A stretch of 64,000 nucleotides of DNA, taken from Candidatus Chromulinivorax destructor (GTDB lineage: Bacteria; Babelota; Babeliae; Babelales; Chromulinivoraceae). The DNA is taken from assembly GCF_003366055.1 (NCBI RefSeq), contig NZ_CP025544.1:372001-436000 (forward strand), given 5' to 3'. Both the position numbers and the translations under genes were made by a program. The notes under the pieces are model-generated. The model did not search any database, was not told the origin of the DNA, and saw only the letters and a list, made by a program, of their open reading frames with translations. This document shows positions 24,659-61,752 of the stretch, piece by piece. Each line of letters begins with the position of its first letter. The first letter of the stretch is position 1.

Positions 24659-25495
24659 ATGTCTCAATTAATACAATTAAAGCAGAGAATCAAAGCTATT
24701 GAAGTTATTAAAAAGATTACGCATGCAATGCGCTTAATTTCAATGTCTTCTCGTTTAAAAATGATAAAGCTCTCAGAAAATTTACATTTTTTCAGAGATG
24801 AAATCACGCCATTATTATGCTCTTTAGAAAGTGCGCACTCAAAAGCAGACCAAAATCAATCAATACAAAAAAACCTCATTATTTTGATTGCATCTGAAAA
24901 AGGTTTATGCGGTAACTTTAATAGTATTATTTTACATCATTTCGAAAATTATCTTAAAAAGATTGATCTAGAAAACTATGATTTTATTACCGTTGGTAAA
25001 CATGCAGGCGACTATCTAGCAAAAAAAGATATTTCTATTGTTGCTCGACATGATAAATTATCACCACATCATCTTGATAAAACAGCTAATAGCTTGTATG
25101 AATTTTTAATGAAACATAAAAATGAGTATGCGACGGTAACCTGCTTATACAATAAATCAAAAAGTTTTTTCATTCAACAGCCTTGCGAGTTTCAACTGCT
25201 ACCAGTTCAACCTCAAACAAGCTGTAATGTCCAAAAAAATATCGATGTCGAAGATTATCATTGGATTCAAAAACCTGAAGATGTTATCGTCTGTATTTTT
25301 CAATCTTTTATTAAATTAAACGTTTTAGCTATACTTTCTGAATCGATTATATCTGAACAATCTTCACGATTTTTATCAATGGATAGCTCAACACGCAACG
25401 CAGAGAATTTATTAAAAAAAATGAATCTTGAATATAATAAAATTCGACAAACAAAAATCACTAAAGAGCTGACTGAACTTATTAGCAGTTTCTAA
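24659..25495 (+). CDS. atpG: ATP synthase gamma subunit
   Basis: 278 residues, the F1 rotor shaft. The N-terminal helix is KQRIKAIEVIKKITHAMRLI, the central motif is KGLCGNFNSII, and the C-terminal helix contains STRNAENLLKKMNLEYNKIR. It stands alone: no alpha, beta or epsilon gene is adjacent, and it is followed by its own terminator. The a and c genes lie far away at 53.3-55 kb, so the operon is split. The ATG has an AAGGAATAAGG upstream. Confidence 0.95.
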   Translation: MSQLIQLKQRIKAIEVIKKITHAMRLISMSSRLKMIKLSENLHFFRDEITPLLCSLESAHSKADQNQSIQKNLIILIASEKGLCGNFNSIILHHFENYLKKIDLENYDFITVGKHAGDYLAKKDISIVARHDKLSPHHLDKTANSLYEFLMKHKNEYATVTCLYNKSKSFFIQQPCEFQLLPVQPQTSCNVQKNIDVEDYHWIQKPEDVIVCIFQSFIKLNVLAILSESIISEQSSRFLSMDSSTRNAENLLKKMNLEYNKIRQTKITKELTELISSF

Positions 25496-51660: not shown

Positions 51661-53070
51661 ATGGTTCAAGTTGATACAAAGATCCAAAATAAAAAAAACC
51701 CAATAATTAACTCCCATCGTACGTACAATGAAATTGTTCAGTATTTGGATGAGAATTGGGGTCAAACAAAAAATTTCATGGCAATCAGCCAACTTGATGA
51801 AATCTTTGGAAACTTGTCTAAAAAATTAAACATCGCTATCGTTTCAGGTACAAGCGGAAAAAGTACAACAATTCACTTTACATGCAAACTATTTAAAGAA
51901 GAAAATTTAAAAGCTGGTGCATTTTACACTCCTCACATAACTTTATACAATGAACGCTTTTCTATAAATGAAAATTATATATCAAATACAAGCTTTACTG
52001 ATATAGCAAATAAAGTTATTCAAACTGCACAAGATAACAAAATAGCTGCAACTTCAAAAGATATATTGACTATGATGGCATTAATTTTCTTTCATGAAAA
52101 TAATGTTGATGTAGCTATTTTTGAAAATAGCTCTATGTATGGTTTAGATCCTGTGATGTATTGCAATCCAAAAATATCTGCTGTAACAAGAATTGTTGCA
52201 AACTCTCAAGATGAAGATACTCATGCTGGCATAACAAATATTATGACCATGATCACTCCAAACTCTCACTTTGTATCTGCAGATCAAAATAAACTTAATT
52301 TGCAAATCATGGCACAACTTGCTGAAAGCAAAGGTAGTATCTGGTCAATGCCTATACGAAAATTAGCTCCATTACAGTACCCATTTGAACAGCTCCATGG
52401 TCGTTGTGCTGCGTTGGCAGAAAGAATTACTCGAATCTACATCGATAATTTTTCAACATCACATGGCAAAGTCCAAGTAGCAGATAGCTTACTGAATAAA
52501 CCAAAAGGTTTAAGAGGCAGACCTACGCTTGAAGCTAAAAAAGTTGCAGAAATGACTCCGCAAAGAACTATTGAACAATTTTGGAGCGAAGTTGTCACAA
52601 CATTACCATCACGTTTCCAACTTATTCAAACTAAAAAATCGAATATTTTGCTCGATAATGCTGACAATTTAGACGCGTTAAGTAATTTATTTCTTGGTGC
52701 AAGACTTCTTTGCTATCAACAAGATTATAAAGAAACATCACTTATTATCGCTTGTCATGAAGGACAATTTGATAATGAAGAATTTATAAAACAAGCTCGT
52801 TATTTCTTTAAAAAATCATCTGGATCTATTGCATTTTGTCCTACAATACCAACAACAGTTGGTGAAAAAACAAAAGCAAGTTGGGATGTTGTAAAAATAA
52901 CAAATGCTGCTAAAACTGCTAAAATAAAAGCGAAAGCTTATGCAAACTTTGCTGATGCTTTCAACGCAATTAAAACAGCTCACAACAATGCTGAGTCTTT
53001 AATTGTTATTACCGGCAGTAAATCTATCATTTCAGAATATGAAAAATATAAAGAAACGATAGCTGAATAA
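51661..53070 (+). CDS. FolC-like Mur-ligase family protein
   Basis: 469 residues. The P-loop is GTSGKSTT (63-70), and YTPHITLYNERFSINENYI matches the SPHL..ER..ING region of folylpolyglutamate synthase/dihydrofolate synthase. The usual FolC loop is GTNGKGS, and the central part contains a basic insertion (KPKGLRGRPTLEAKK), so it is divergent. It may add glutamate to a folate-like substrate, or it may be another Mur-type ligase. It is first in the operon; its stop overlaps the next start (TAATG). Confidence 0.7.
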   Translation: MVQVDTKIQNKKNPIINSHRTYNEIVQYLDENWGQTKNFMAISQLDEIFGNLSKKLNIAIVSGTSGKSTTIHFTCKLFKEENLKAGAFYTPHITLYNERFSINENYISNTSFTDIANKVIQTAQDNKIAATSKDILTMMALIFFHENNVDVAIFENSSMYGLDPVMYCNPKISAVTRIVANSQDEDTHAGITNIMTMITPNSHFVSADQNKLNLQIMAQLAESKGSIWSMPIRKLAPLQYPFEQLHGRCAALAERITRIYIDNFSTSHGKVQVADSLLNKPKGLRGRPTLEAKKVAEMTPQRTIEQFWSEVVTTLPSRFQLIQTKKSNILLDNADNLDALSNLFLGARLLCYQQDYKETSLIIACHEGQFDNEEFIKQARYFFKKSSGSIAFCPTIPTTVGEKTKASWDVVKITNAAKTAKIKAKAYANFADAFNAIKTAHNNAESLIVITGSKSIISEYEKYKETIAE

Positions 53071-53333
53071 TGTTGCAAGCTATTTGCATAACTTTTTTTG
53101 GTGGTTTATTATTTGGACTTTCTCTGTTACATACACAGAAAGTCCTATTTTTATCAAAAAATCCACTCCTTGCAGCAGTCATATCAACGATACGGCTCCT
53201 TGTCATCTCTGTTTTTTTCTATATTATGTTGAAATCAACTCAGATACATCCTATAATTTTAGTAACTTCATTTTTAGTAGCATATTGGCTAATTATTTTA
53301 AAATTCAAAGAGCTCCTGCATGGAAAACAATAA
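53070..53333 (+). CDS. AtpR/AtpI-like small membrane protein
   Basis: 87 residues with three membrane helices. TM2 contains a conserved-type Arg (VISTIRLLVISVFF, Arg42), as in AtpR of N-type ATPases and loosely AtpI. These small proteins help assemble the c ring. The context, directly before atpB and the c-subunit gene and overlapping both neighbours, supports this. The sequence alone would not be decisive. Confidence 0.6.
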   Translation: MLQAICITFFGGLLFGLSLLHTQKVLFLSKNPLLAAVISTIRLLVISVFFYIMLKSTQIHPIILVTSFLVAYWLIILKFKELLHGKQ

Positions 53334-54057
53334 TATCCTGACCGGTCATCAATGGCAGCCACTTGCTCACTATGGGTTTACTCATCCATTTTGGACAATT
53401 CATACCGATACACTTTTGGGGACAATTGTCGCTACCCTGATGATTATCGCAGTATCACTGTATGCGCATCGCATACTGAAAAGAAAACAATCCGTTACTA
53501 AATTTATTATTTTAAAATATGTCGATGGTTTTAAGGATCTTTTGCAACAAACGCTGCATAGTGCTCCTCTTGAACATTTAGCTTTTATTGGATCTCTTTT
53601 TACCTTTATTGTCTTCTGTAACGCTATGGCATTTATTCCCTACATTGAAGAACCAACACGAGATTTAAATACAACACTAGGACTTGGACTCATCTCATTT
53701 TGCTACGTTCAAGGTTATGCTATCTATCATAAAGGTTTTTTTGAATACCTATCAGATTTTACAAAACCATTTTTTTTAATGCTTCCTCTTAATATCATTG
53801 GAACATTAACTTCAATTATATCTCTTTCATTTCGACTTTTTGGAAATATATTTGGTGGCTATGTAATTGCTCACCTATCTTTACAAGCGCTTGAAAGTTC
53901 CTGGATTATGCAAACTATTGGTTTAATGACAGGCTTTAACCTTGCTATTTCTATAATTTTTGGGCTATTTGAAGGAATTATTCAAGCTTTCGTTTTTGCT
54001 ATGCTTACCCTAACTTATCTATCAATGGAAATCGTATCTGACGAGGAGTCTGAATAA
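53320..54057 (+). CDS. atpB: ATP synthase subunit a
   Basis: 245 residues, five to six membrane helices. The essential Arg is Arg172 in SLSFRLFGNIFGG; FGLFEGIIQAFVFAMLTLTYLS is the C-terminal helix with its conserved Glu and Gln. It forms the ion half-channels against the c ring. It overlaps the AtpR-like gene by 14 bases and is followed two bases later by the fused c-subunit gene. Confidence 0.95.
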   Translation: MENNNILTGHQWQPLAHYGFTHPFWTIHTDTLLGTIVATLMIIAVSLYAHRILKRKQSVTKFIILKYVDGFKDLLQQTLHSAPLEHLAFIGSLFTFIVFCNAMAFIPYIEEPTRDLNTTLGLGLISFCYVQGYAIYHKGFFEYLSDFTKPFFLMLPLNIIGTLTSIISLSFRLFGNIFGGYVIAHLSLQALESSWIMQTIGLMTGFNLAISIIFGLFEGIIQAFVFAMLTLTYLSMEIVSDEESE

Positions 54058-54059
54058 TT

Positions 54060-55013
54060 ATGATTGAAATAATGCATATACTTTCGATTTCTATACCGGT
54101 AACCATGTCAGCTTTAGGTGCAGGCATCGGGCAAGGTCTTATCGGATTAAAATCTTTACAAGCTGTTACCATTCAACCAAGCGCATCATCAGAAATTAAT
54201 AAAATATCGACCGTTGGTTTATCACTAACCGAAACTGCTGCTATTTTAGGTCTTGTTATATCAATCGTTTTAAACATTGACACCGCAGTGCCTTTAAACT
54301 ACGAAAGCGCAGCTCTTGGTAGAATTGGCATTGGAATAGCAATCGGCTTATCAGGATTTATTGCAGGTATTGCATCATCTCTACCAGCACAGGCTGCATG
54401 CTTATCAGTTGCACGACAACCATTTTTTGCTAATAAAATATTACAACTCATGCTTCTGACACAAACCGTAATCATGACTCCTAACGTTTTTGGATTCATT
54501 ATTGCTTTGCTTATCAATGCAAAAGTAGCAACCGTAAACAGTTTAAATGAAGGCTTACAACTTCTTGCAGCAGGTTTATCAATTGGTCTTGGAAGCATTG
54601 GACCATGTCTTGGATTAAGTCTTTTTGCCTATTCAGCATGTAAAGCTGTTGGGATTAACAGAAAATCATACACAAAAATATTACCTTTTACGTTTATTGC
54701 AGAAGCAATTATCGAAACTCCCGTGATTTTTTCGCTTTTGGTATCACTTTTAATCTTAAATGTTAAAATTTCACCAACAGCACCAATTATTCAAGGCATT
54801 TGTTTTATTGCTGCAGCTTTTTGTATGGGTATGAGTACCCTTGGAACTGGCATCAGTGCAGGTGCAACAGGTTCTGCTGCATGCGATCAAATTGGTGAAA
54901 ATCCTGAACATTATTCGATTATTTCAAAAGTCGGCTTGTTAGCATTAGCCATGATCGATACTTTTGCAATTTATGGTTTTATCGTCTCAATAATGTTAAT
55001 CTACACAATCTAA
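54060..55013 (+). CDS. atpE: ATP synthase c subunit, four fused hairpins
   Basis: 317 residues, eight membrane helices in four c-type hairpins of about 80 residues. The positions of the ion-binding carboxylate are Glu58 (LTETAAILG), Met139 (IMTPNVFG), Glu219 (IETPVIFS) and Asp300 (MIDTFAIYG), spaced 81, 80 and 81 residues, so hairpin 2 has lost it. Loop motifs such as VARQP (118-121) remain. Hairpin 1 also has GIGQG (Gln25), a feature of Na+-type c subunits; the neighbouring T-A does not fully fit, so H+ or Na+ is open. A ring of such subunits would carry three sites per four hairpins. Confidence 0.9.
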   Translation: MIEIMHILSISIPVTMSALGAGIGQGLIGLKSLQAVTIQPSASSEINKISTVGLSLTETAAILGLVISIVLNIDTAVPLNYESAALGRIGIGIAIGLSGFIAGIASSLPAQAACLSVARQPFFANKILQLMLLTQTVIMTPNVFGFIIALLINAKVATVNSLNEGLQLLAAGLSIGLGSIGPCLGLSLFAYSACKAVGINRKSYTKILPFTFIAEAIIETPVIFSLLVSLLILNVKISPTAPIIQGICFIAAAFCMGMSTLGTGISAGATGSAACDQIGENPEHYSIISKVGLLALAMIDTFAIYGFIVSIMLIYTI

Positions 55014-56155: not shown

Positions 56156-56581
56156 ATGAAGAAGTTATCTATATTAATAGCTTTTAGTTTTATGGCAATA
56201 GCTGCTGAAAATATATATGCCGGTAAAGGCAAAACTATTCATATCCATAATACTGGTACCCAACGAGTTGAGTTATGGCAACAAAAAAAAGATGGTTACC
56301 CAAAAAAACCCACATATGGAGATACAACATGTTGTAATGGTAAACCTGCTTATGGACTTAATAATTTTGAGTGGGGTAAAGAAACTCTGGTTGGAACAAT
56401 TAATCCAAAAGAAACTACACAATTTACACTAGTAGATGATGTTGATTACGATGGCTTCTGCTCGTGCACCAAAATTCGATATCTCATTAAAAACTTTAAT
56501 AAACAGCCTGTAGATACTCAATACAGACCTGCAAGTGATGAATATTTTGATGGGCATAAAAAAGACACTATGCAATTTTAA
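56156..56581 (+). CDS. small secreted protein of cassette unit 1
   Basis: 141 residues. Sec signal MKKLSILIAFSFMAIAAENIY, then IHIHNTGTQRVELWQQ, a Cys-containing middle and the tail EYFDGHKKDTMQF. AAAAAGGAGAAC precedes the ATG. It is a paralogue of the gene at 57038: the signal and the C-terminal region agree and the middle differs. No known family; a strand-rich, IHNTG-type small domain suggests a binding protein. Confidence 0.75.
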   Translation: MKKLSILIAFSFMAIAAENIYAGKGKTIHIHNTGTQRVELWQQKKDGYPKKPTYGDTTCCNGKPAYGLNNFEWGKETLVGTINPKETTQFTLVDDVDYDGFCSCTKIRYLIKNFNKQPVDTQYRPASDEYFDGHKKDTMQF

Positions 56582-57037: not shown

Positions 57038-57415
57038 ATGAAAAAGTTATTAAAATTTATAGCTTTTAGCTGTATCGTAGCAATAACTGCTGAAAATATA
57101 TATGCTAAAAATATTCGCATCCATAATAGCGGTCCACAAACAGTTGAGGTCTGGCAAAAAGTAAAAAATCATTTTGTAGACGCGACTTCAGCTAATAATT
57201 ATTTTTATGGACCTGTTTGGGGTGCAGAAACTAAACTTGGAACAATTACTGCAGGCGAAACTCAACCATTTACACTCGCAGATAGTGTTGGTAAAGATAA
57301 ATATGAAATTCAATATCTTATTAAAGACTTTAATAAACCAGCTGTAGATACTACATACAGACCTGCAATTGATAAATATTTTGATGGGCATAAAAAAGAT
57401 ACTATGCAATTTTAA
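57038..57415 (+). CDS. small secreted protein of cassette unit 2
   Basis: 125 residues. Signal KLLKFIAFSCIVAITAENIY, then IRIHNSGPQTVEVWQ and the tail KYFDGHKKDTMQF. The Cys-rich middle of the unit 1 protein (TTCCNGKPAYG, FCSCTKI) is missing here, so disulfide content differs. Flanking DNA is almost identical to unit 1 but the coding part is clearly diverged. Confidence 0.75.
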   Translation: MKKLLKFIAFSCIVAITAENIYAKNIRIHNSGPQTVEVWQKVKNHFVDATSANNYFYGPVWGAETKLGTITAGETQPFTLADSVGKDKYEIQYLIKDFNKPAVDTTYRPAIDKYFDGHKKDTMQF

Positions 57416-58347: not shown

Positions 58348-61300
58348 TTACTCAATATGCGATTGCTTATAAAAAAATAACGATACTATCAGCAACATCC
58401 CTATTGCTAGCAATGCATGCATTGCAGATCCTGCATACGATGGATACATAATTTCTGGAATGCAATAATTCATAATGCATGTTAACACCATAGCAATTGG
58501 TAATAAAGTCATATCATACTGTAAAATGAGTCTATAAATTATATATAAAGCAATTGCCATGGCTATGCCTTGCAATGCCATGCCAGATACAGACTGACTT
58601 ACAAAAAGAGCTTGAAATGAGCAACTAAACAGAATCATAACGACAAGTTGCATCCAGCTTTTTGACAATTGCTTTACCAATAAAAACATTACTATTACTA
58701 AGGAGGTAAACAAACAATATTGCGTCAGCATTGCTCCACAAAATGATAATGCTGGCAACCATGCCCCAGCATAAGTTGTATTGCATGATTGTGGCTGCAA
58801 TGTTATTTGATACTGATCTACATACGAAAAGATACCTGATAAAAACAGTCCAATTGCGCCTGCAATACCCCATGACTGCAGATATTTTTTTGTTTTACTT
58901 TTAATAAAGCCAACAGCTGCAATAGTTAAAAACACCGAAAAGAAAAATATCTGCCAAATGTTGCCTAAAATAATTTGTAAGAGAACCCGACTTGATTGTT
59001 CATAAAAAGGCTCTGCAGTATTAAATGTTCCCACATAGATACAAAAGTTATTAATACTCATAATGGTAACAAGCGTGCAAACAAATAGAGCTTTATTTCG
59101 TAAAATTTTTGTGCCATATAACGAGGTTAATAATTTATTAATCCCAACGATACATGCGATTAAAACAAATAAAATTAAAATAAAATATAAAGCTATTTTA
59201 TACATACTCAGATTAATTAAAAATGCTTGATCTGCACGGCTCCAATCTTCTGGAACAAAAATAAATCGACTGTACTCAGTTACCACATCACCAGAAATAG
59301 TAATTTGTATACGAGCTTGCCCTTCTTGATTAAAATCAAAAAATTCAAGGTCTTGCACAACAATAGTCCAATCTCGACGATGCTCTAATTTTTTACTTAC
59401 CACAGAAATCAACTCAACATTTTGTTTATCAAGTAAAAATCGATCTTGAATGTAAGCATACGCAATATCCAATGCTTTTTCTTCTGAAATATCAGCACCA
59501 GTATGATGCTCGGGGATATAATGTTGCAAGCCAATAACTTCTGGGCAAATTTCATCAATTTCTACATCTTGTGTGCAATAAGCATTTGCAACATAAGCTC
59601 TTAATTCTTGGCAACGTTCTTCAACAGGACGACTAAATTGAACAAAACGAACAAGCCATGTCACCCCTTGCAAATATGAACATTGCATATCTTGGCACAC
59701 TTCCTTACCATACACCTGCCATATAAAACGATGCTGACTATTCATCGTCTGATCTTGAACTGTTGCAATAGCATTAAAATTAGATAGAACATCGATATGA
59801 TACTCTTTTTCTAATGCTTTTGCTGCACATGCTATAGCTTGTGCTTTGGTAACCTGTAATACACCTACATCTGATCGATTATGATCAGTCATAAACCACA
59901 AACAACTCCCAATCACACCCAAAAATAATGCTATAATAAGATTTCTTGCTGGGATTTTAGATCCAATTTTGCGAGGCTCTGGTTGCACCGGAATATATTC
60001 TGCTGTATGAAATGCCTCATTATACAATTCAACAGGAGCTGTCTGTAATTTTTTGTTATACAAAAACAGCGCACAGACAGTCCACAGGGGAAGCCCAATT
60101 AAAAAGACAACCATGACTTTTGAAAACAGAAGCGTTGATGAAAATACCGGCAGAGCAAAAAGAATTGCATCATATACAAAATGACACAACGCTCCTGGAA
60201 TCAAACCAAATTTGCAGTATAAAAAACCAAAACCAAATGAAGGAATTATCAATTCTACAAGACGAGCAAAAAATGGTTGGTTTGGATAATTTGCATGGCA
60301 AGCTCCAAAAACTAATGCTTGCAGCATAAACATAACCGCAAACCATACTTTTTTATGCTTACTTTTTTGTATTACAAGAGCAATCATCGCAAGTGGCAAT
60401 GCACGAAATAAAACTTCTTCGGTAAAGCCAGCTCGAATCGAGATGCTAATCGGTCCAAACCATGGTAAATATGAAGCTACAACATTTGGGTCTGCCATAC
60501 TTGATGCTGGCGACCACCATGCTAAATAATGATCTGTCAGATAGCTATACAATATTTCATAGCCAAACATACATGGAGTACACAAGTATGCAATCAAAAC
60601 TTGATTAAAAAGTTCTTGTGATGTTATAACGGGCCACTGCAATGATGAGAAAAATTGAATATGATGCTTGTAAATAAGTCTGCCTGCAGCTTCAGCAACA
60701 ACAAGCCCTACAAAAACAAAGCTGAGTAAAACAAAAAATTCTAAAAAAATACCAAAACATTTCATCATGATAAATGTTGATGTTGCTTGAATGGTGTTAT
60801 AAGAGTTCCACCAGAGCTGATATTCATTCAAGCCGCTAAAAAATTCAAGAATTGCGACACAAAAAGAAGTTAAAAAAGCTGCTTTTGCAAACAAGTAATT
60901 ACGACGATATAAATATATCATCCCAAAAAGAGCTAATATAAAGAGATATACTAACTTAAAAATAAAAGTTCCAAAATGTGCTAATAGTTCATTTGCTGAA
61001 CGCATTTCTTTATAACGACGTAAGAATTCATCTGGAATTTTTACACTTGGTTCACATTGAGTTAGCACGTCACCACAAACAACTGCTGTAAATCGATATA
61101 ATCCTTTCCCAATGGTCAAATCAGTACGCTCATATACAAAAGAATGATCAACTCTTCCCGTATCTTGTTTTTCAGAATTGTATTCAACTAAAGCATACCT
61201 ATCAAATTTTGGACACCACAATGATATATTTTTTTCAACAAGAGCCATCGCTTGCTCTTTTGATAGCGTATTTCCTTGAGATTTTTCTGATATTTTTTGA

Positions 61301-61752
61301 TAAAATCCTATTTTTTCACCTTCAGGACTAAATAAGACTTTCATTTCAACAATTTCATGTTCTTTAAAAAATCTTACTTGCCATTGATATGGATAATATG
61401 CCCCAGATTGAAACATTTGAATAAAAGCATCTTTTCCACCAGCTTCAAGCTCTATAAAACTTTGTAAATTTGCATCAGATGCAAACTGTACTGATGTTTG
61501 ATATCCTGTCATATTCCAGTCTAAATCAGATGCAATCTTATGAGCGCTTGCAACAACCTGATCTTTATCAGCAGTAATTGAAAGCTGTACAATAGGCGCC
61601 ACGACATCAAAATATTTATATGACAATGCAGCCGATAACGCTGATAAAAAAACAAAACAAAACCAAAAAACATGTCGTCTATTTATTACCATTCCACAAC
61701 CTTTTTTAATGAAAAATACTATGTCAGATAGGGTAACAAATTCAACGAGCAT
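58348..61752 (-). CDS. very large CPBP-family intramembrane protease
   Basis: 1134 residues, many helices. The CPBP (Rce1/Abi) motifs are visible: EEVLFR (Glu445, Glu446, Arg450), FGACH (His486) and HFVYD (His524, Asp528). Most CPBP proteins have 200-300 residues. Here the core is embedded between two soluble regions of PepSY-like alpha/beta type (about 55-240 and 640-850) and a second membrane region. The start may be Met21 (at 61692), giving a cleaner first helix. Substrate unknown; eukaryotic relatives process prenylated proteins. Confidence 0.8.
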   Translation of the reverse strand: MLVEFVTLSDIVFFIKKGCGMVINRRHVFWFCFVFLSALSAALSYKYFDVVAPIVQLSITADKDQVVASAHKIASDLDWNMTGYQTSVQFASDANLQSFIELEAGGKDAFIQMFQSGAYYPYQWQVRFFKEHEIVEMKVLFSPEGEKIGFYQKISEKSQGNTLSKEQAMALVEKNISLWCPKFDRYALVEYNSEKQDTGRVDHSFVYERTDLTIGKGLYRFTAVVCGDVLTQCEPSVKIPDEFLRRYKEMRSANELLAHFGTFIFKLVYLFILALFGMIYLYRRNYLFAKAAFLTSFCVAILEFFSGLNEYQLWWNSYNTIQATSTFIMMKCFGIFLEFFVLLSFVFVGLVVAEAAGRLIYKHHIQFFSSLQWPVITSQELFNQVLIAYLCTPCMFGYEILYSYLTDHYLAWWSPASSMADPNVVASYLPWFGPISISIRAGFTEEVLFRALPLAMIALVIQKSKHKKVWFAVMFMLQALVFGACHANYPNQPFFARLVELIIPSFGFGFLYCKFGLIPGALCHFVYDAILFALPVFSSTLLFSKVMVVFLIGLPLWTVCALFLYNKKLQTAPVELYNEAFHTAEYIPVQPEPRKIGSKIPARNLIIALFLGVIGSCLWFMTDHNRSDVGVLQVTKAQAIACAAKALEKEYHIDVLSNFNAIATVQDQTMNSQHRFIWQVYGKEVCQDMQCSYLQGVTWLVRFVQFSRPVEERCQELRAYVANAYCTQDVEIDEICPEVIGLQHYIPEHHTGADISEEKALDIAYAYIQDRFLLDKQNVELISVVSKKLEHRRDWTIVVQDLEFFDFNQEGQARIQITISGDVVTEYSRFIFVPEDWSRADQAFLINLSMYKIALYFILILFVLIACIVGINKLLTSLYGTKILRNKALFVCTLVTIMSINNFCIYVGTFNTAEPFYEQSSRVLLQIILGNIWQIFFFSVFLTIAAVGFIKSKTKKYLQSWGIAGAIGLFLSGIFSYVDQYQITLQPQSCNTTYAGAWLPALSFCGAMLTQYCLFTSLVIVMFLLVKQLSKSWMQLVVMILFSCSFQALFVSQSVSGMALQGIAMAIALYIIYRLILQYDMTLLPIAMVLTCIMNYCIPEIMYPSYAGSAMHALLAIGMLLIVSLFFYKQSHIE

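Follow-up and report, generated by a model that had tools for sequence, protein, structure and literature searches.

A four-hairpin subunit c fixed across the Babelota, and its probable place in a mixed rotor ring of an F-type ATPase

The number of ion sites on a rotor ring sets how many ions are moved per ATP, and rings that mix unlike subunits were known before from V-ATPases and, among F-type enzymes, from a few acetogens. The ring of the eukaryotic V-ATPase is a mixture of c, c' and c''. In the Na+ F1Fo enzymes of Acetobacterium woodii and Clostridium aceticum, c1 has two hairpins and c2 and c3 have one (PDB 4BEM, PMC7911925), and the solved c-ring of A. woodii contains c1 together with c2 (PDB 4BEM). 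Fused c/K subunits of V/A-type enzymes have two hairpins in Enterococcus hirae (NtpK), three in M. jannaschii and 13 in Methanopyrus kandleri (PMC2359735). In Na+ rings, one site is made of Gln-32 and Glu-65 of one hairpin together with Ser/Thr-66 and Tyr-70 of its neighbour, and the fused subunit of E. hirae draws the latter two from the preceding hairpin (PMC2359735). Here we describe a four-hairpin subunit c (c4, with hairpins H1 to H4) encoded in a 64,000-nt stretch of the Candidatus Chromulinivorax destructor genome (the window; NZ_CP025544.1, positions 372,001 to 436,000). This bacterium belongs to the phylum Babelota (also called Dependentiae or TM6), whose members live inside protists.

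We consider it probable that c4 and a single-hairpin subunit c (single c; c1 in the Babelota context) share a mixed ring of the cell's sole F-type ATPase, and that this enzyme is run backwards as an ion pump, probably for Na+. In such an enzyme c4 would be a rotor subunit, one or a few copies of which would be placed between copies of the single c encoded elsewhere, the whole forming an enlarged version of the A. woodii c1/c2 ring. Complete ion sites would persist at the contacts between polypeptides and be lost within c4, so that each c4 would add a sector poorer in usable sites and lower the ion/ATP ratio. Here, a version with four hairpins is fixed throughout a phylum of intracellular bacteria, and F-type operons of unrelated families contain comparable ones with two to four.

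The four-hairpin gene and the single F-type enzyme

The c4 gene is an intact open reading frame of 317 amino acids at window positions 54060-55013 (+). Four separate stretches of its product score above the cut-off of the Pfam model ATP-synt_C (PF00137; E 9e-36), which identifies it as an ATP synthase subunit c, with a carboxylate in three of its four hairpins:

54060..55013, + strand: four-hairpin subunit c (c4), 317 aa; PF00137 four times; eight transmembrane helices by AlphaFold2
54063..54278, + strand: hairpin 1 (residues 2-73); Q25, E58, T59, L63; Gln-32/Glu-65 half-site kept, without Tyr-70
54300..54527, + strand: hairpin 2 (residues 81-156); Ser at position 32, M139 at the carboxylate position, T140, F144; dead site
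54543..54761, + strand: hairpin 3 (residues 162-234); L186, E219, T220, F224; carboxylate only
54786..55007, + strand: hairpin 4 (residues 243-316); without Gln-32; D300, T301, Y305; Thr-66/Tyr-70 half-site kept

An earlier reading made from the letters of the stretch alone (the sequence-only reading) had proposed four fused F-type hairpins with eight membrane helices, and carboxylate positions at Glu58, Met139, Glu219 and Asp300 spaced by 81, 80 and 81 residues, the carboxylate of hairpin 2 being lost. Each of these points is borne out: the four Pfam stretches lie among F-type neighbours, an AlphaFold2 model built with 35 homologues (mean pLDDT 96.3, pTM 0.92) has eight membrane-length helices, the repeat alignment gives the same residues and spacing, and Q25, to which it had also drawn attention, does sit in GIGQG.

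The same gene was expected to recur in relatives, and a complete c4 reading frame is present in 96 of 101 Babelota genomes, including all 68 of high quality; the five that lack it are all less than 80% complete. Because the window genome is one contig of 1.17 Mb and the frame recurs throughout the phylum, among others in a second complete single-contig genome (AP025250.1), c4 is not an assembly artefact of four genes, the possibility that the sequence-only reading had itself raised. It is under purifying selection, with a dN/dS of about 0.14-0.16 against its nearest relatives. A pseudogene or a sequencing or assembly artefact is thus ruled out by intactness in 96 genomes, single-contig genomes and a dN/dS of about 0.15. 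A contig scan with a closer c4 sequence set matched only Babelota, partly owing to its narrow patterns. In the literature searched on Dependentiae and ATP synthase, with most subscription journals outside the search, we found no description of a four-hairpin subunit.

The neighbourhood of c4 and the other ATPase genes place it in an F-type enzyme. Each genome has one subunit a, directly upstream of c4 in 96 of 96 loci. In the phylum-wide alignment of a, all 94 sequences with a residue in the column of the essential Arg have retained it. Within the window the relevant genes are:

53320..54057, + strand: subunit a (atpB), 245 aa; PF00119 E 1e-37; the only one in the genome; essential Arg in SFRLFGN
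53070..53333, + strand: small membrane protein of 87 aa upstream of a, without family match; detectable at roughly half the loci of the phylum
51661..53070, + strand: FolC-like ligase; TIGR01499 E 2e-31, below that model's cut-off; conserved upstream neighbour
24659..25495, + strand: subunit gamma, orphan gene; PF00231 E 1e-54; the only one in the genome

The FolC-like ligase is a marker of the neighbourhood and lies outside the enzyme; the 87-aa protein is possibly AtpI/AtpR-like, an assignment made without a family match. The genome also has a c-b-b'-delta-alpha cluster about 44 kb away and a beta-epsilon pair. The cluster encodes an ordinary single-hairpin c of 87 aa with Gln-32, Glu-65, Thr-66 and Tyr-70 (I. 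tartaricus numbering). The two b subunits (b, b') are assigned by position only; their places hold two unlike short proteins of 123 and 160 aa (L006:5912-6762, - strand), neither of which Pfam recognises as b. Subunit epsilon (L012:5649-5894, + strand) has only 81 aa, its match being limited to the beta-sandwich domain, and its C-terminal helical domain is missing. In other bacteria the epsilon C-terminal helices restrain ATP hydrolysis, and their loss would fit the hydrolysis (reverse) direction.

The inventory of the window genome thus holds one each of a, alpha, beta, gamma, delta, epsilon, single c and c4; of its three PF00006 matches, two are alpha and beta and the third reads as Rho. No V/A-type catalytic A or B subunit was found in this genome. 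With a (PF00119), alpha and beta, gamma, delta and epsilon all present, the system is an F-type ATP synthase, one enzyme with two c genes. A V/A-type enzyme, with c4 as its subunit K, was considered and is ruled out by the lack of A and B and by the F-type character of all surrounding subunits.

Polarity of the ion-site ligands inside and outside Babelota

To read the ion sites, we placed the ligands on a common alignment and took the pairing rule from I. tartaricus and E. hirae (PMC2359735), the geometry being that of the paper and not of the c4 model; junctions were counted over the 62 genomes with both c proteins to hand. Across the 96 c4 sequences, a Gln, Glu or Asp at position 32 occurs in H1 (73/96) and H3 (27/96) and never in H2 or H4, the H1 carboxylate is present in every one, and Tyr-70 is absent from H1, H2 and H3 and present in 91 of the H4 hairpins. 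The ligand sets are complete between two single subunits in 49 of 62 genomes, from single c to H1 in 37 and from H4 to single c in 52; at each internal c4 interface they are complete in none. In the window genome itself both the single-H1 and the H4-single sites are complete, the H1/H2 site is dead (M139, without Gln), and the H2/H3 and H3/H4 sites have the carboxylate only. These counts suggest that complete Na+ sites form across polypeptide junctions and never inside c4, the polarity that a fused protein placed between single subunits would show. Such a junction rule allows a prediction from sequence of which hairpins are neighbours in a ring; it also makes the tolerance of a rotary motor for consecutive empty sites directly testable.

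The carboxylates themselves vary more than the sequence-only reading had supposed. Its E/M/E/D pattern, expected to be conserved in relatives, occurs in only 7 of 96 sequences; the commonest patterns from H1 to H4 are EQED (44), EEEE (21) and EQEE (13), with a few others. The hairpin 2 carboxylate is missing in 72 of 96 and a Glu in the remaining 24. It is kept in families f4, f5, f14, f15, f18 and f16 and lost in most families, with Gln the commonest residue at this position and Met peculiar to the window's family. At position 32 of hairpin 1, 17 genomes, mostly of family f19, have Glu in place of Gln, which gives two carboxylates in one site, as in Fusobacterium nucleatum.

As to the ion, the Na+ ligands (Gln/Glu-32, Glu-65, Ser/Thr-66, Tyr-70) are complete in the single c of the window genome and in 51 of 64 single c proteins of the phylum, which suggests Na+ for most of the phylum. 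Gln25 had been taken earlier as a hint of Na+. The matter is better judged across the subunit junctions: Tyr-70 is missing from hairpin 1, but the preceding subunit supplies it, and ligand sets at the junctions can be complete.

A search that took in 273 genomes outside Babelota found multi-hairpin c proteins, with two, three or four hairpins, in 16:

loci L218-L233, multi-hairpin c outside Babelota: G199, G183 (the only member of its own phylum in the genome set), G196, G344, G207, G244, G335, G279, G133, G328, G214, G360, G352, G222, G239, G232

At 14 of the 16 loci a single c is adjacent and F-type subunits are present, the other two being cut by contig ends; the operon order is a, multi-hairpin c, single c. 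Carboxylates are found in 12 of 16 first hairpins, 0 of 13 middle hairpins and 2 of 15 last hairpins, and Tyr-70 is kept in 13 of 15 last hairpins (last against other hairpins, Fisher p 2e-7, for sequences that are not independent). Some of these proteins have no carboxylate at all, as in G199, where all four are gone. In G199, G344 and G328 the last hairpin keeps Ser-66 and Tyr-70 although the first is dead, which points to single c as the following partner.

In a tree of individual hairpins, calculated from few columns, Babelota H1, H2 and H3 are each monophyletic whether or not the ligand columns are included; H4 is so only when they are, and not strictly without. Since each Babelota hairpin forms one clade, c4 most likely has a single origin that predates the radiation of the phylum, which we propose tentatively given the short alignment. 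With the ligand columns removed, hairpin 2 is still grouped with middle hairpins from other phyla. The same removal shifts the placement of hairpins 3 and 4, which then lean, on moderate support, to the single c of Babelota, so the tree is compatible with their carboxylates having been either kept or regained.

Composition of the ring and direction of operation

The sequence-only reading had pictured a ring of c4 alone, and had named a separate single-hairpin c gene as what would speak against it; that gene is present in the same genome and in 92 of the 96 that carry c4. A ring built only of c4, for example of three copies (12 hairpins), with the single c serving another purpose or an alternative ring, is unlikely in our view. 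It would explain why c4 always adjoins the sole subunit a, and the H4-to-H1 junction is also complete in 43 of 62 genomes, so the ligands alone leave room for it. Against it stand the conservation of the single c in 92 genomes, inside the c-b-b'-delta-alpha cluster and with the Na+ motif in 51 of 64, and the retention outside Babelota of Ser-66 and Tyr-70 in last hairpins where the first has lost its carboxylate; in G199 such a ring would have zero ion sites. Two interchangeable rings, one of single c and one containing c4, might instead share one a and one F1 and act as a gear change by condition. The separate Babelota clusters would permit separate regulation of the two genes; outside Babelota, however, they are neighbours within a single operon, and the half-sites that face outwards match the expectation for mixed rings, which makes this quite improbable. 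It appears very unlikely that c4 is no part of the rotor and instead a c-like factor for assembly or regulation, such as a ring seed, maintained beside a: its internal sites are lost and degenerate, and its counterpart in G199 has no carboxylate, but the ligands of its outer half-sites are strongly conserved (H1 carboxylate 96/96, H4 Tyr 91/96) and the structure of its closest solved relative, A. woodii c1, is that of a c-ring shared with c2.

The direction of the enzyme is a separate matter. The TLC ATP/ADP translocase is present in 98 of 101 Babelota genomes (68 of 68 of high quality). Cytochrome oxidase (COX1) and complex I (NuoH) were each detected in one of the 101 genomes, both doubtfully, in a search that did not extend to other pumps able to drive ATP synthesis, such as Rnf. 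The NuoH match (G081:C29:253-1158) has four in-frame TGA codons and the COX1 match (G023:C10:3-206) is a 204-base fragment; both are probably mitochondrial or other contamination in metagenome-assembled genomes. Because the translocases are near-universal and oxidase and complex I are lacking, the enzyme probably hydrolyses ATP to pump ions, with Na+ the likely ion, in a bacterium that would import host ATP and do without a respiratory chain. Reverse operation was earlier proposed for one member of the Babelota (PMC6561590). The idea that the fused subunit lowers the ion/ATP ratio and so favours pumping, already put forward in the sequence-only reading, is supported. A forward-running ATP synthase with a mixed ring tuned for synthesis would accord with the intact F1 subunits and with A. 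woodii, which has a similar mixed ring and makes ATP according to the title of Fritz and Muller (2007), as cited in PMC7793690; we regard it as improbable in view of the missing oxidase and complex I and the near-universal translocases.

The mixed, backward-running ring is itself opposed by several points. Gene content, conservation and site polarity are direct readings of sequence, from which we infer co-assembly of c4 with single c and likewise stoichiometry, ion and direction. The two genes lie far apart in Babelota, the single c being beside b, delta and alpha in nearly all fetched loci, and no single c was detected in four of the 96 c4 genomes (G051, G053, G058, G060), of which G053 is 94% complete. 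Carboxylates are kept in H3 (91/96) and H4 (95/96), and these hairpins may still carry H+. One Na+ ligand is missing in 13 of 64 single c proteins, so the ion could differ between lineages.

If c4 and single c do share a ring, the c4 sector of Babelota, with one dead and two non-sodium carboxylate sites, could act as a built-in gear that lowers Na+/ATP for an ATP-burning pump. It might then exemplify a broader and so far undescribed class of F-type rotors whose partner subunits have two, three or four hairpins, some without any carboxylate, so that the ring has to turn through several successive empty positions; this reading as a whole we offer tentatively, as somewhat short of an even chance.

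Downstream of c4, the window also encodes tandem, similar, small secreted-looking proteins (56156-56581 and 57038-57415; MKKL...ENIYA..., with the shared C-terminus YFDGHKKDTMQF) that are probable recent duplicates, and a large multi-membrane-span protein of 1134 aa (58348-61752, - strand) that looks internally duplicated.

Comparison with known rotors

The best PDB match to c4, by profile (1.3e-23) and by fold, is A. woodii c1. As in A. woodii, an F-type enzyme with one F1 and one a is accompanied by a single c and a fused multi-hairpin c, both kinds being present in 92 of 96 genomes. The second hairpin of the fused subunit has lost its carboxylate in both, to Gln in A. woodii and most Babelota and to M139 in the window protein. 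The polarity of the ligands is also the same, with Gln/Glu-32 and Glu-65 in the first hairpin and Thr/Ser-66 and Tyr-70 in the last; in the printed sequence of A. woodii c1 these positions are Q/E/T/F for hairpin 1 and Q/Q/T/Y for hairpin 2. Unlike A. woodii, where the fused subunit has two hairpins and the genes lie in one operon, Babelota have four hairpins, keep carboxylates in hairpins 3 and 4 and split their c genes between clusters; A. woodii, moreover, conserves energy itself. The proposed c4 rotor is therefore a variant of the F/V-hybrid type of A. woodii and not a plain member of it.

The c/K subunits of V/A-type enzymes share with c4 the tandem fusion of c hairpins and the frequent loss of ligands from one hairpin, but c4 lies among F-type subunits. 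The eukaryotic V-ATPase ring, seen among the fold matches, likewise mixes unlike proteolipids, has fewer ion sites than hairpins and belongs to an ATP-driven pump; it differs in being no F-type enzyme, in having two hairpins (four or five helices) per subunit and in its separate origin. The Na+ c-rings of Ilyobacter tartaricus and F. nucleatum (PDB 1YCE, 3ZK1; PMC3692424) have the ligand set found in the Babelota single c, and the two-carboxylate motif with Glu-32 of F. nucleatum recurs in H1 of many f19 genomes and in non-Babelota single c. Both of these rings are homomeric and made of single hairpins, unlike the mixed ring that we propose for Babelota.
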